A stretch of DNA of 64,000 nucleotides from the NCBI RefSeq assembly GCF_004766055.1, contig NZ_SPQR01000004.1, forward strand, positions 248,001-312,000, written 5' to 3'. This document shows, piece after piece, positions 30,285-36,321 of this stretch; positions within the stretch are counted from its first letter, which is position 1, and each line of letters begins with the position of its first letter. Origin of the DNA: Desulfosporosinus sp. Sb-LF. GTDB taxonomy: Bacteria > Bacillota > Desulfitobacteriia > Desulfitobacteriales > Desulfitobacteriaceae. The position numbers and the translations under genes were made by a program. The notes under the pieces were generated by a model that was given only the letters and a program-made list of their open reading frames with translations, had not been told where the DNA came from and made no database searches.

Positions 30285-30668
30285 TTTTTCCTCCTAAATA
30301 ATGTTATAACATATACGGTATTTTCAAGAGTTACGACTATAGGTTGGGTTTTCACCCCTGATCTGAGCCTAGAGAATTTTCTCCTTTGGAACAGGAAATC
30401 TTTTTGTTGTTCGCCATGTTCTTTCACATTACTATATAGTTCTAGGTGCTAGTCTGATTTCCTACCCACTATCCCGAAAATCGACGAACTTTCATATCTA
30501 TGAAATAGGCATTTTAAATAAGGTGAACTCTTGTACGGAATATTCGTAATAGAAGGAAAGATGATACTCCCCTCTTGGCTCGAACTTGAGACGAAATGAC
30601 CTTTAGAACTATATAGGTTCCCAACGAATACTATGGTAAATAAAGGATATATCCAAAGGAGAGTTACT
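30285..30668. other. Intergenic region upstream of the small membrane protein operon
   Basis: About 385 bases. Divergent promoters are expected. The segment 30625-30650 (CTATATAGG ... GAATACTATGG) vaguely resembles a sporulation sigma-factor promoter but does not meet a strict consensus. The ribosome site AAAGGAGAG precedes 30669. Confidence 0.35.
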
Positions 30669-30797
30669 ATGATTGCTTGTGAAGATAGTGCTTTGTGGCT
30701 TATCCAAAGCTACTGGGTTATATGGCTGATATTCTCTGCCGTTGTTGCTATGTTTTTAGGTGGAGTCATTTTCAAAAACTATGAAGAAATTAAGTGA
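30669..30797 (+). CDS. 42-residue single-pass membrane protein
   Basis: ATG 30669 with AAAGGAG at ideal spacing and stop TGA 30795-30797. An N-terminal acidic stretch precedes a long hydrophobic segment (LIQSYWVIWLIFSAVVAMFL) and a charged KNYEEIK tail. It opens a run of four tightly spaced genes. I do not recognise it. Confidence 0.65.
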   Translation: MIACEDSALWLIQSYWVIWLIFSAVVAMFLGGVIFKNYEEIK

Positions 30798-30801
30798 TAG
30801 T

Positions 30802-31014
30802 ATGTCATACGGAAAGAATAATACCCCACGTTTTACAAAGGAAAAAGCTAACAACTCTAACCCTAACACTAAGTTTTGGGGAGTCTGGTTACCTGTGCCC
30901 ACCGTTCTCGCTATCATCGTTTCTCTCTTTTTCAATTGGCTAATAACGCAATCCGTTGGGTACGTTGAATCTCCGATTGAAAAAGCTGCGAAAAACATTA
31001 TTGAGGAATTTTAG
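30802..31014 (+). CDS. Small single-pass membrane protein of unknown function
   Basis: About 70 residues if it starts at ATG 30802, four bases after the preceding stop; in-frame ATG 30781 and GTG 30760 would overlap that gene. A polar Asn/Thr/Lys-rich N terminus is followed by one membrane segment (VPTVLAIIVSLFFNWLI) and an amphipathic charged tail. Its stop codon merges with the ribosome site of the next gene. Not recognised. Confidence 0.6.
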   Translation: MSYGKNNTPRFTKEKANNSNPNTKFWGVWLPVPTVLAIIVSLFFNWLITQSVGYVESPIEKAAKNIIEEF

Positions 31015-31027
31015 GGGGGGGTTGCTG

Positions 31028-31876
31028 ATGCGGCGCATTGAAACTAGCAATAAGTTGCTGAAGGCCCTCAATCAATATTTGCCCCCTCTCCTTTCACGCT
31101 GTCCTTCACCGGAACAACAAAGGCTTATTTACGAAAAATACTATCCGCTCATTCTCCAGCATGTACGCAAATTGTATTCCCAAAGTCTTAATCCCTTCTA
31201 CTTGTGTCCGGAGTCGATTCTGGTTTGGCTTATCATCCCACCTCATAACGCCATTGGAATTAGTTTGCTGGGGCTCCGCAAAATAGCGATTTATTGGCGA
31301 CAGCAAATTGAACCGAATGAAACCATTTTTTTACTGTTTAAGATCATAGATTTGCATGTGCCCTTTCCCGTAATGTTGTTCATAATGTTTGCAAGCATTG
31401 GACTAATTATCACGGATGGTGCGAATCGACTTGTGAAAGCAGCGCAAATGCAATCGGAAGAAATTTTAGGCGACATTAAAGAAACCTTAAATAAGTTATC
31501 TGATGTAACGGAGGATTTCCAACAGTCTATTGAAACTTTGAAAACCCTAAAAAATACCCAAAGAGCTCGCCAATTACTTGATCCTTTTAATATAACCCCA
31601 CGCATGTCTGTCTTTTTCCCAATCTATGACAACCATACCACCTTAGGAATACTCTTAATTGATTTTAGACATCTGGAAGTGACTCTTAAGCAGTCCTTAG
31701 AACCCAATGAAACAATTGTTGGTCTAATTCGCTCTGTTGACATTTACAGTCCTTTTCCACTCCCGATTATGGTCATGTTACTATCGATGGGTCTTTTCTT
31801 AGTGAGCAAAATTCAAGAACTGAATCAAGCAACGCGTGAGGAAGTATTAAGTGACGTAAAACGAAGTATACCCTAA
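31028..31876 (+). CDS. Unrecognised membrane protein with an internal duplication
   Basis: 282 residues from ATG 31028, six bases after a very strong GGGGGGGG site. Two halves repeat: residues ~62-154 and ~191-282 share EPNETI (95-100, 225-230), PFP (112-114, 242-244), a hydrophobic segment right after it, and an EE-L-D-K end; the offset is a constant 130 residues. Each repeat has a soluble alpha/beta part, then one membrane helix, then a charged helix. The spacer (~155-190) is predicted coiled coil. No family is recalled. The operon with three tiny membrane proteins suggests a membrane complex. Confidence 0.75.
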   Translation: MRRIETSNKLLKALNQYLPPLLSRCPSPEQQRLIYEKYYPLILQHVRKLYSQSLNPFYLCPESILVWLIIPPHNAIGISLLGLRKIAIYWRQQIEPNETIFLLFKIIDLHVPFPVMLFIMFASIGLIITDGANRLVKAAQMQSEEILGDIKETLNKLSDVTEDFQQSIETLKTLKNTQRARQLLDPFNITPRMSVFFPIYDNHTTLGILLIDFRHLEVTLKQSLEPNETIVGLIRSVDIYSPFPLPIMVMLLSMGLFLVSKIQELNQATREEVLSDVKRSIP

Positions 31877-31903
31877 TGCAAAACGATGATAGGGGTGGTC
31901 AAC

Positions 31904-32065
31904 ATGTCATTCGAATATCTTTGGGCCCATGGTACAACCTTAGGCATTCAACCTTTTCCTTATTTTGCGCCAATGGCATCATTAGGTGTCTTCCTTTTTA
32001 TCGTCTACATTATCACTGCAGTACAACAAGTGTTGGAAAACCCGAACCAGCACCTTTTATGGTAA
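31904..32065 (+). CDS. 53-residue single-pass membrane protein
   Basis: ATG 31904 with AGGGGTGG ahead, stop TAA 32063-32065, 27 bases after the duplicated-domain gene. One hydrophobic segment (FAPMASLGVFLFIVYIITAV) and a short polar tail ending in HLLW. A longer overlapping frame from 31876 lacks a ribosome site. It closes the operon. Confidence 0.6.
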   Translation: MSFEYLWAHGTTLGIQPFPYFAPMASLGVFLFIVYIITAVQQVLENPNQHLLW

Positions 32066-32094: not shown

Positions 32095-32140
32095 AAAAAT
32101 CCCTCGGGCCTTTCTTTATTAAGGGTTCAGGGATTTTTAT
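32095..32140 (+). terminator. Probable terminator of the small membrane protein operon
   Basis: 10-bp stem 32095-32104 with 32129-32138, the 3' arm ending in five T residues. Confidence 0.5.
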
Positions 32141-33538: not shown

Positions 33539-33763
33539 TTACATGCCGCCGACCGGCGGGGAAAAGGCAACTGTATCTTGGTCTTGTAGAACCTGTTCAA
33601 ATTCCGCCTGACGATTGTTAACCATACATATGGCGACTCTTTCTTCGGGGAGATTGTGCTTATTGATGATATCAATCACACGGCTGTTTTCTTCTAGCTG
33701 AGTCGCTTTTTCTTCAAATCGTCCTTCTCGAAAATCTCCAAAGAGTTTTACATTAACTTCCAA
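33539..33763 (-). CDS. MoaD/ThiS-family small sulfur-carrier-like protein
   Basis: 74 residues with the beta-grasp pattern and end of MoaD/ThiS proteins (DTVAFSPPVGG). It differs in having a Met after the GlyGly, so the terminal Gly needed for adenylation is not exposed unless processed. TTG 33763 follows AAGGGGGC. It lies 64 bases downstream of the aldehyde:ferredoxin oxidoreductase gene, a common pairing. It may help build the tungstopterin or act as a protein tag; this is inference. Confidence 0.85.
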   Translation of the reverse strand: MEVNVKLFGDFREGRFEEKATQLEENSRVIDIINKHNLPEERVAICMVNNRQAEFEQVLQDQDTVAFSPPVGGM

Positions 33764-33827
33764 CGTTTAGCCCCCTTATCAAACTCATTTTTGCATGATG
33801 GCGTTTAGTTATGATTTAACGAGACAC

Positions 33828-35552
33828 CTAAAAATTAAAAACCTGATCGAGCTCTTCACCGGAAAAATCCCATGTAGCATTATGTGGAGGCACTGGTTCG
33901 CTGAAGAATTCTGGTAAGCGATCATCCTTATTGGTAAATCCAGCAGCTTCATTGAAAGCCCTCTCCGTTTTAAGCACAAAGCGCCCCATATTAAACCAGT
34001 CGTCCACGGACCAACTAGTTCCATACTGGGCGTTAATCATCTCGATTACGGCATGAGACACCGGTTCAGAGTCCAGAATAGCAAAGGCAGTGAAAACGCA
34101 GAGGCCCGCACTATCAATGGCCGCAGTCGCGATTTGCAAATTTCGCGACAGTTCAATCTGCCCATCTTTAGCTAATGGGTCAGTGTGACCACCTACATTC
34201 AAAATATTCGAAGTCACTGAGTACCCTGCTGTATGATCGGCCCCCATCGTCGTAGTAGCATAGGTTACACCAATACCCTTTACAGATCGTGGGTCATAAG
34301 CCGGCATGCTTTGACGTTTCACCGTAGGAATTCGAGTCACTCCAAACGCTTTTCCGGTGAAATCAGCTCCATTGCCCAGAATGCGGCCAAGTGGGGTGCC
34401 TTCTTTAATTTCTTCTTTAAATAATTTTAAAATACCCTTACCATCACCCCAGGGAAGGATCCCAGCTTCCATAGCTACCATCATGGTTCCCGCAGTTTCA
34501 ATGGTATCAATGCCGATGTCATCACAAATCTGATCGATATTAGCAATAATATCCAGATCATCGACGGTACAGCCCGCCCCAAATCCCCAAATTGTCTCAT
34601 ATTCAAAACCAGAGGTGAGGTATTTTTTATCTTTGTCATTGTAAGTCTGGGAGCAACGAATGACACAACCGACATGACATCCATGAGTGGGATCTCCCTC
34701 TCTGCTCATAATCGTGTCATACATGGTTTCGCCACAGATCTTCTCGGCTCCATCGAATTGACCCATCCTGAAGTTCTTGGTTGGCAGTCCACCAGCCTCG
34801 TTAAGAATGTTAACTAAGACATTCGTTCCATATTTTGGTAGGGCATTACCGCTGACAGGATGACTGAGCAATCCCTTATTGAAAAGTTGCGCAGAGTGTT
34901 TGAATTTCCCCTTGTCAAGTATCTGAATTCCTTCCCCGTCGTTATCATCTAGCGTTATGTACTTTATCCGTTTAGAACTCATCACAGCGCCAAGTCCGCC
35001 ACGCCCTAAGCTACGAATATGCCCTTTAGGATCTTTAACTGAAATATTCGCAGCAAGCATTTTATGCTCTCCAGCTTGCCCAATGGTCAAGACTCCCGTA
35101 TTTTCTCCATATCTAGCGGTTAGGGTATGGATTACTTCATAATTGCCTTTGCCCAAAAGTTCAGTCTCTTCTTTGATTTTTACCCCGTCTTTATGAACGT
35201 GGAGACTATACCATTGATCTCCTTCTGGAATCTCTTCAATGATTAAAGCTTTTACCCCAAGCTTCGCTAATCTTTGAGCCGCCGTTCCACCGGAGTTGCA
35301 CTCTTTGATTCCACCTGTCAAAGGACTCTTTGCACCTGCAGATAATCGTCCTGAATTAGCGGCCATAGTACCCGCAAACAACCCTGGTGCAAAGACTAAT
35401 TTGTTTTTATTGCCCAGAGGGTGACAGGCCGGCTCTACCTCTTTGGCTACAATGACGGAAGTCAACCCTCGGCCCCCTAGCAGCTTCCACTCCTCAGGTA
35501 CTTCCTCAGCCACAAACGAGAGATTTGACATGTTAACACGATAAATTTTCAC
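33828..35552 (-). CDS. aor: Aldehyde:ferredoxin oxidoreductase (tungstopterin enzyme)
   Basis: 574 residues, slightly short of the archaeal enzyme (605). N-terminal AOR domain with NSGRLSAGAKSPLTGG and RGGLGAVMSSKRIK pterin contacts; 4Fe-4S ligands in GCHVGCVIRC (spacing CxxxCxxxC) and the distal AIDSAGLC (DxxGLC). It oxidises aldehydes to carboxylates with ferredoxin, or runs in reverse. GTG 35552 has GGAGGG ahead. It lies 58 bases after the hydrogenase cytochrome gene, with no terminator seen, so read-through from the hydrogenase operon is possible. The MoaD-like gene follows. Confidence 0.92.
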   Translation of the reverse strand: MKIYRVNMSNLSFVAEEVPEEWKLLGGRGLTSVIVAKEVEPACHPLGNKNKLVFAPGLFAGTMAANSGRLSAGAKSPLTGGIKECNSGGTAAQRLAKLGVKALIIEEIPEGDQWYSLHVHKDGVKIKEETELLGKGNYEVIHTLTARYGENTGVLTIGQAGEHKMLAANISVKDPKGHIRSLGRGGLGAVMSSKRIKYITLDDNDGEGIQILDKGKFKHSAQLFNKGLLSHPVSGNALPKYGTNVLVNILNEAGGLPTKNFRMGQFDGAEKICGETMYDTIMSREGDPTHGCHVGCVIRCSQTYNDKDKKYLTSGFEYETIWGFGAGCTVDDLDIIANIDQICDDIGIDTIETAGTMMVAMEAGILPWGDGKGILKLFKEEIKEGTPLGRILGNGADFTGKAFGVTRIPTVKRQSMPAYDPRSVKGIGVTYATTTMGADHTAGYSVTSNILNVGGHTDPLAKDGQIELSRNLQIATAAIDSAGLCVFTAFAILDSEPVSHAVIEMINAQYGTSWSVDDWFNMGRFVLKTERAFNEAAGFTNKDDRLPEFFSEPVPPHNATWDFSGEELDQVFNF

Positions 35553-35610
35553 GAATACACCCTCCAGAGACCTAAATTTTGTGAATTCCAGCCAGCTTCA
35601 CATAGACATA

Positions 35611-36321
35611 TTATTTGACATGAGACTTCTTATTATTCAAAGCATCATCCTTCTTAATTCCCTCAGAATTGACCAATTCGAATTTATAGCCATTAAGCAT
35701 GGAAGACACAGTACCATCATCATCTAAAATATCCTGTCTAAAGACCATGTATAAATGCCCCAAGACGAAGATGGAAAATCCCCAGGATATCAAACGATGC
35801 AAACTTCTAACTTGATATTCTCCACCCAAGCCTGGGACAATCCACCCCAATAAACTTTGCCAAATTCCCTGAGGATCCCCACCCCCTCGCATGGTTAAAC
35901 CCGTTAAAATCATCATACATCCCCCGAGCCATACGAAAATAAAGTACATTAACTGAGCGATCGAATTATGCCCTGCATTAAGTGAATGTTCCTTACTAAT
36001 AAAGCAATAATATCGGACTGTTTTTAACGCATCGCGCAAAAAACCTGGTCGCCAAAATCCAAATCTAGCGTAATCGTTTCCTGCCCAAAACCAATAAGCT
36101 CGGAACATCAAATTCGCACTAAAAACAAAGGATGTAATGCCATGCCAAAATCGTACCCTTCCCATCACAAAATGCAGGGTAGCCTCACCCTGCGGCGCTA
36201 AAACAGGGTGGGCAATATAGAGCCCTGTTATAAAGAGAATCGTGATTGCCAAAGCATTTATCCAGTGAAATAGCCGCACTGGAAGCTGCCAAACATAAAT
36301 AGGACTTCTCAATGAATTCAT
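35611..36321 (-). CDS. hyaC: NiFe hydrogenase b-type cytochrome subunit
   Basis: 236 residues, four transmembrane segments and heme-binding histidines including HWINALAI near the N terminus and HRLISWGFSIFVLGHLYMVF near the C terminus. It anchors the group 1 uptake hydrogenase and passes electrons to the menaquinone pool. It starts at ATG 36321, 18 bases after the large subunit stop, in the order small-large-cytochrome. Confidence 0.93.
   Translation of the reverse strand: MNSLRSPIYVWQLPVRLFHWINALAITILFITGLYIAHPVLAPQGEATLHFVMGRVRFWHGITSFVFSANLMFRAYWFWAGNDYARFGFWRPGFLRDALKTVRYYCFISKEHSLNAGHNSIAQLMYFIFVWLGGCMMILTGLTMRGGGDPQGIWQSLLGWIVPGLGGEYQVRSLHRLISWGFSIFVLGHLYMVFRQDILDDDGTVSSMLNGYKFELVNSEGIKKDDALNNKKSHVK

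Follow-up and report, generated by a model that had tools for sequence, protein, structure and literature searches.

The window analysed here is a 64,000-nucleotide stretch of the genome of Desulfosporosinus sp. Sb-LF (phylum Bacillota, class Desulfitobacteriia; contig NZ_SPQR01000004.1, positions 248,001 to 312,000). Four small membrane-protein genes, found as translated open reading frames, lie together on its plus strand at 30669-32065 and are referred to below as the cassette: three encode short peptides (pep1, pep2 and pep4) and one a larger protein, here called the main protein (Table 1). Each peptide contains one hydrophobic segment that is long enough to span a membrane, and the main protein consists of two copies of a unit of approximately 80 residues. 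The original prediction, made from the DNA sequence alone, had described frames of 42, about 70, 282 and 53 residues with single-pass small peptides. The frames are present at that place and are found again in other genera, and the single hydrophobic segment of each peptide agrees with the description. The strong ribosome binding sites that it also described are seen, by eye, at pep1, the main gene and pep4, which is three of the four genes; none is clear at pep2. The pep2 gene may be translationally coupled, and an alternative start at 30781 is possible that gives 77 residues. The cassette is flanked by two EamA transporter genes.

Table 1. Features of the cassette and its surroundings (window positions).
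Feature	Position	Strand	Remarks
Predicted sigma-K-type promoter	30608..30635	+	-35 AC at 30608-30609, 17-nucleotide spacer, -10 AATACTATG at 30627-30635; relaxed consensus
pep1 ribosome binding site (AAAGGAGAG)	30655..30663	+	by eye
pep1, 42 residues	30669..30797	+	single membrane helix, conserved LIQSYWVIWL core
pep2, 70 residues	30802..31014	+	single membrane helix, conserved KFWGxWLPVPT motif, acidic C-terminal end with final F
Main protein, 282 residues	31028..31876	+	internal duplication of a four-strand-plus-helix unit
Main protein unit 1, residues 54-132	31187..31423	+	structure prediction and profile comparison
Main protein unit 2, residues 184-263	31577..31816	+	structure prediction and profile comparison
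pep4, 53 residues	31904..32065	+	single membrane helix, conserved QPFxYF motif, C-terminal LLW
Terminator-like hairpin followed by a T run, 3' of pep4	32106..32128	+	weak: 3 such sites in the scanned region, 1.7 expected

The profile of the N-terminal unit matches that of the C-terminal unit with 99.6% probability (E 7e-24, 79 columns), in agreement with the internal duplication originally proposed for the 282-residue protein. The repeat offset, proposed to be a constant 130 residues, is 130 for EPNETI (residues 95 and 225) and PFP (112 and 242) and 127 for the EE-x-L-x-D-x-K motif. The comparison indicates that the duplication is not due to chance, because the two profiles match and both units are predicted to form four strands and a helix. 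This arrangement appears twice in the model of the whole main protein, built from 11 sequences with a predicted local distance difference test score (pLDDT) of 72, and again in the model of unit 2 alone, built from 23 unit sequences (pLDDT 82). A joint barrel of the two units was considered and is not relied on because of the pLDDT and the number of sequences of the whole model.

At E 0.001 or better, Foldseek searches match the whole model to nothing in the PDB or a viral library and the single unit to nothing in the PDB (best E for any chain 0.59); such absent matches do not prove a new fold. The best structural match of the unit is Pur-alpha from Borrelia (Z 6.1, root-mean-square deviation 4.9 over 70 residues, Foldseek E 1.7 or worse). 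Like proteins of the PUR, PC4 and Whirly fold, the main protein is predicted to have four strands followed by a helix in two repeats. Unlike them, its helix is hydrophobic, and the match to Pur-alpha lies below the level that would indicate kinship. In the model, the likeness to Pur-alpha is that of a common strand-strand-strand-strand-helix arrangement and is no evidence of kinship. Other matches of the whole model were set aside: Z values of at most 6.5 to unrelated helices, and 5.8 to the LigD phosphoesterase, a match that spans both units.

The four proteins have no match above the curated cut-offs in Pfam or NCBIfam, none in PHROG at E 0.001 (best E 0.0072, to a family of no known role) and none among the PADLOC models of anti-phage defence at E 1. 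Sixteen homologues of the main protein receive no Pfam assignment, and a profile of their alignment (A1) finds no PDB chain at E 10. No profile in these searches assigns the 282-residue protein to a characterised family, and the lack of a recognised family that was originally noted holds throughout. The sub-threshold matches (DUF948, ZapG-like, DUF4229 and the PHROG family) are confined to coiled or single-helix stretches and were rejected. The DUF948 match, for example, scores 18.9 bits against a gathering cut-off of 37.2, covers residues 130-174 only and appears in one of the 16 homologues. T3SSipB is likewise matched by one of the 16 (0.0056). Among eight single-unit-form proteins, Stevor is the sole weak Pfam match (0.013, below the cut-off). 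These two matches were also rejected. No paper on the cassette is found among the literature matches listed, with subscription papers outside their coverage.

With the unit profile at E 0.01, 27 of the class's 82 genomes contain homologues; among the 54 high-quality genomes, 17 do. A sample of 398 genomes from the phylum contains six matches at E 0.001, five within the class, including that of the window, and one marginal match outside it. Loci with a double-unit main protein number 18 in 17 genomes. The order pep1-pep2-main-pep4, with all parts present, occurs in each of the 17 double-unit loci that no contig end interrupts. Because many of these sequences served as profile seeds, detection of the parts is partly built in, but their order and adjacency are not. 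The eighteenth locus (L031) begins inside the main gene and shows the main gene and pep4. The small frames are thus conserved between species, and the gene order is kept in other genomes.

One of the 17 uncut loci is a second cassette in the window's own genome (L073:10789-12165, contig C27), near a contig end. Its main protein is 47% identical to that of the window, its pep4 is split over two reading frames, and nearby frames resemble transposase fragments by eye. Another of the 17, L041:5887-6444, encodes a main protein of 185 residues in which the first membrane helix is largely missing, together with the linker and the beginning of unit 2; this shortened form may be an assembly artefact.

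A single-unit form is present at 13 loci in 11 genomes. Six of these have the order pep1-pep2-unit-pep4 (L082, with a weak pep4 match; L086, with a broken unit frame; L088, L128, L129 and L130) and four the order pep2-unit-pep4-pep1 (L083, L084, L085 and L087, with the upstream pep2 of L085 and L087 identified by eye). At L079 and L080 the unit comes first, after a DUF2935 gene, and L080 ends before pep4. The sequence of L081 ends after the unit. When the peptide profiles of the two forms are compared, pep1 matches pep1 with 99.0% and pep4 matches pep4 with 97.6% probability, and all mismatched pairings are below 10%. The pep4 profile used in this comparison excludes the L079 sequence, which was among the seeds of the pep4 profile in the locus survey. 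The pep2 link is weak by profile-profile comparison (17.7%), but the double-unit pep2 profile matches L079 (1.7e-8), L080 (2.9e-8) and L086 (2.9e-15). The dedicated four-part unit originally proposed is supported by the content and order of the uncut double-unit loci and by this diverged version with matching partners.

Relative to the nearest complete cassette (G047), the ratio of nonsynonymous to synonymous differences (pN/pS) is 0.52 for pep1, 0.29 for pep2, 0.31 for the main gene and 0.24 for pep4. Between two close Desulfosporosinus genomes, the corresponding rate ratio (dN/dS) is 0.11 for pep2, 0.20 for the main gene and 0.02 for pep4. For pep1 it is 0.83 with few sites, so selection on pep1 is not well shown by rates, and its apparent constraint rests on the conserved core.

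In the tree built from 16 main proteins, the copy in the window clusters with G042, from another genus, and G047, from another family (support 100/99), and is apart from the second copy in its own genome. D. fructosivorans groups with two Gracilibacter genomes (100/100). The cassette is apparently an accessory part that has moved laterally between spore-formers. Several genomes in the tree are metagenome-assembled, and contamination could mimic part of this pattern. A mobile competition, toxin or phage-related membrane cassette would account for the lateral spread and the small hydrophobic proteins, and the patchy distribution, the conflict between gene tree and taxonomy and the second copy amid transposase-like frames are in keeping with it. 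Such a cassette is nevertheless very improbable here. A search at E 0.01 of 50,697 phage and 72,556 plasmid records gives no match, and no viral-contig match is confirmed; in the phage and viral sequences searched, the cassette thus shows none of the presence expected of a phage lysis or other phage module. The empty PADLOC and PHROG searches argue in the same direction, as does the conserved late-sporulation promoter described next.

Comparison of upstream sequences reveals a shared box approximately 20-40 nucleotides before pep1 in most loci. All 17 uncut double-unit loci carry the pattern AC-N16/17-[CA]ATANNNTR within the 150 nucleotides before the conserved pep1 core (QxYW codons). In 200 dinucleotide shuffles, this relaxed sigma-K pattern occurs in a mean of 0.6 loci and a maximum of three. 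When the last box before pep1 is picked regardless of the -35 region, AC appears at a spacer of 16 or 17 nucleotides in 11 of 17 loci (4 and 7, respectively), and none of the remaining spacers from 8 to 25 has it in more than two; ATA has no peak. In Clostridioides difficile, according to excerpts of one report (PMC3789822), sigma-K promoters have AC at -35 and sigma-E promoters have ATA. Given that contrast, the AC at -35 points to sigma-K. The window cassette fits the predicted sigma-K layout in its relaxed form. Other patterns are rare in the 17 loci: sigma-F occurs in one, sigma-A in none, sigma-G in none in either a strict or a relaxed form, and sigma-E in zero to three depending on the width of the pattern. 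Of 316 called genes of at least 100 residues in the fetched loci, a background set in which the cassette main genes were kept, 14 match within 100 nucleotides of their start. These 14 include one cassette gene (pep2 of L041) and two DUF2935 genes beside cassettes. Among the single-unit loci, 3 of 13 have a strict and 8 of 13 a relaxed match within 160 nucleotides of the first gene, which is a DUF2935 gene in L080 and has an approximate start in L085, L087 and L088.

The same patterns were compared with sporulation genes in Desulfosporosinus. The dpaA gene is a sigma-K gene in Bacillus subtilis; spoIVA is a sigma-E gene and spoVAC a sigma-G gene. The strict sigma-K form precedes dpaA in 27 of 28 genomes, including that of the window, counting one locus per genome and leaving out five extra copies. 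It is absent before spoIVA (0 of 28, also over approximately 500 nucleotides) and before spoVAC (0 of 30 loci), where sigma-G-like sites are present in 20 of 30. For CotJB, planned as a second positive control, nothing in Desulfosporosinus matches (0 of 28). The guess of a sporulation link in the original prediction gains support, at the level of sequence, from the promoter in all 17 double-unit loci and from the dpaA control.

The promoter could instead be read by sigma-E, in which case the module would act earlier, in engulfment and cortex formation. The wide sigma-E pattern is found in 3 of 17 cassettes over 150 nucleotides and, in a scanned length that differs, before spoIVA in 27 of 28 genomes over approximately 500; the narrow pattern misses spoIVA itself (0 of 28 in 180 nucleotides). 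Use of sigma-E is quite unlikely, however, because AC rather than ATA is enriched at the -35 distance, dpaA shows the same arrangement as the cassette, and spoIVA has the sigma-E pattern without the sigma-K pattern.

Several observations weigh against assigning the cassette to sigma-K. The textbook CATA form is present in just 5 of the 17 double-unit loci, including one near-identical pair (shuffle mean 0.19, maximum 1), and the window's own site has the relaxed form only. The relaxed -10 element, [CA]ATA, was set after the sequences had been seen. Because the double-unit loci are related, they do not count as independent cases, and the dpaA promoters are themselves mutual orthologues. The sigma-K pattern is missing from five of the 13 single-unit loci. 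The yabG gene, which is driven by sigma-K in B. subtilis, failed as a positive control (L131-L156; 0 of 26 strict, 1 of 26 relaxed), hinting that it is under different control in Desulfosporosinus. The genes adjoining the cassette in the window are not spore genes.

With these points considered, the cassette is reasonably likely to encode a laterally moving, sigma-K-driven membrane complex of the mother cell that acts late in sporulation, probably in the outer forespore membrane. The computed basis consists of the conserved gene set, the duplication, the predicted fold of one unit, the promoter match and the patchy spread; from it we infer the use of sigma-K in the cell, the formation of a complex and its location. 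The four genes would form one late-sporulation operon, transcribed from the sigma-K promoter directly before pep1, and from such a promoter the mother cell would produce the proteins once engulfment has ended. A mother-cell product of that stage can enter the mother-cell or outer forespore membrane and not the inner one. The complex would therefore reside in the membrane of the mother cell, and its most useful site would be the outer forespore membrane that surrounds the developing spore, a location held with moderate confidence. The main protein would present folded beta platforms tied to membrane helices, against which the peptides would pack. Our conjecture is that the complex helps the spore envelope to mature, whether it anchors the coat or cortex side or alters what crosses the membrane.

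That the main protein and its three single-pass partners most likely come together as one membrane complex is our inference from the constant company of the four genes. If the four were instead late spore membrane or coat-associated proteins that act separately and are only co-regulated, the same sigma-K promoter evidence would apply. Gene order is permuted in some single-unit loci, and spore coats hold many lineage-specific small proteins, which also suits separate action. That arrangement seems improbable, given that all components occur together in every uncut double-unit locus and that pep1 and pep4 recur beside the single-unit form.

A more specific form of the complex is a speculative and rather unlikely extension. 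The four-strand-plus-helix units and three obligatory one-helix subunits might form a multi-subunit machine of the outer forespore membrane through which something is moved into or out of the spore as it forms. With one helix per unit, an odd number, simple topology would set the two beta units of the window's main protein on opposite sides of the membrane, the layout of inverted-repeat channels and transporters. By eye, basic residues follow both membrane helices of the double-unit main protein, and from its charges pep1 seems to be oppositely oriented in the double-unit and single-unit forms.

The cassette shares its promoter layout with sigma-K regulon genes of the same genus such as dpaA (spoVFA). 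The dpaA product is a soluble enzyme subunit, whereas those of the cassette are membrane proteins for which the searches found no family. SpoVM and CmpA are also very short mother-cell proteins that act at the forespore surface. They are sigma-E products, whereas the cassette peptides are single-pass helices in a fixed four-gene set. Neither is reported by the family searches of the four proteins, in which no direct comparison was run. Excerpts of two reports (PMC10126465, PMC5133452) describe 2Duf and spoVA2mob, in which an accessory spore operon places a spore membrane protein on mobile DNA. The likeness extends to a DUF421 gene that adjoins the cassettes of G047. 2Duf is likely in the inner spore membrane, whereas the outer one would be expected for a sigma-K product. 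Pfam reports neither DUF421 nor DUF1657 in the four cassette proteins.

Most known mother-cell membrane components of sporulation come from Bacillus and a few Clostridia. The cassette adds a four-part module of no recognised family from one class of environmental, anaerobic spore-formers, among which it is apparently exchanged. The predicted time and place of its expression are testable. If the proteins do form a complex, three peptides and one protein would be a small system for how one-helix subunits build a membrane assembly.

Spore genes adjoin some cassettes in other genomes and are listed here by locus, not as an enrichment statistic. G047 carries two cassettes in tandem, one single-unit and one double-unit; DUF421 and DUF4363 genes come after them, a GerA gene lies on their upstream side and a spore permease gene on their downstream side. 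In G028, a GerA gene adjoins the single-unit cassette. In the window, the minus strand carries a run of genes at 33539-36321 in which Pfam identifies an aldehyde ferredoxin oxidoreductase and a cytochrome b561-type protein; by eye, a small MoaD-like frame also belongs to the run, and hydrogenase-like frames lie beyond it. Clusters of tiny glycine-rich hydrophobic proteins lie near three cassettes (L039:4731-5381, L073:6740-7222 and L089:16424-16885); Pfam gives no match for the one tested, and we take them to resemble the YjcZ sporulation type. In three Desulfosporosinus genomes, a PlsC-like acyltransferase gene is directly downstream in the same direction (L074:8786-9505, L075:8793-9512 and L076:8255-9043; called by Pfam for the L074 copy only). 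DUF2935-type proteins are encoded beside three cassettes (L078:7738-8736 and L079:8511-9332 by Pfam, L080:1326-2138 by likeness to L079). The relaxed sigma-K pattern is present at two of these three genes (L078 and L080), suggesting a late-sporulation role for the proteins.
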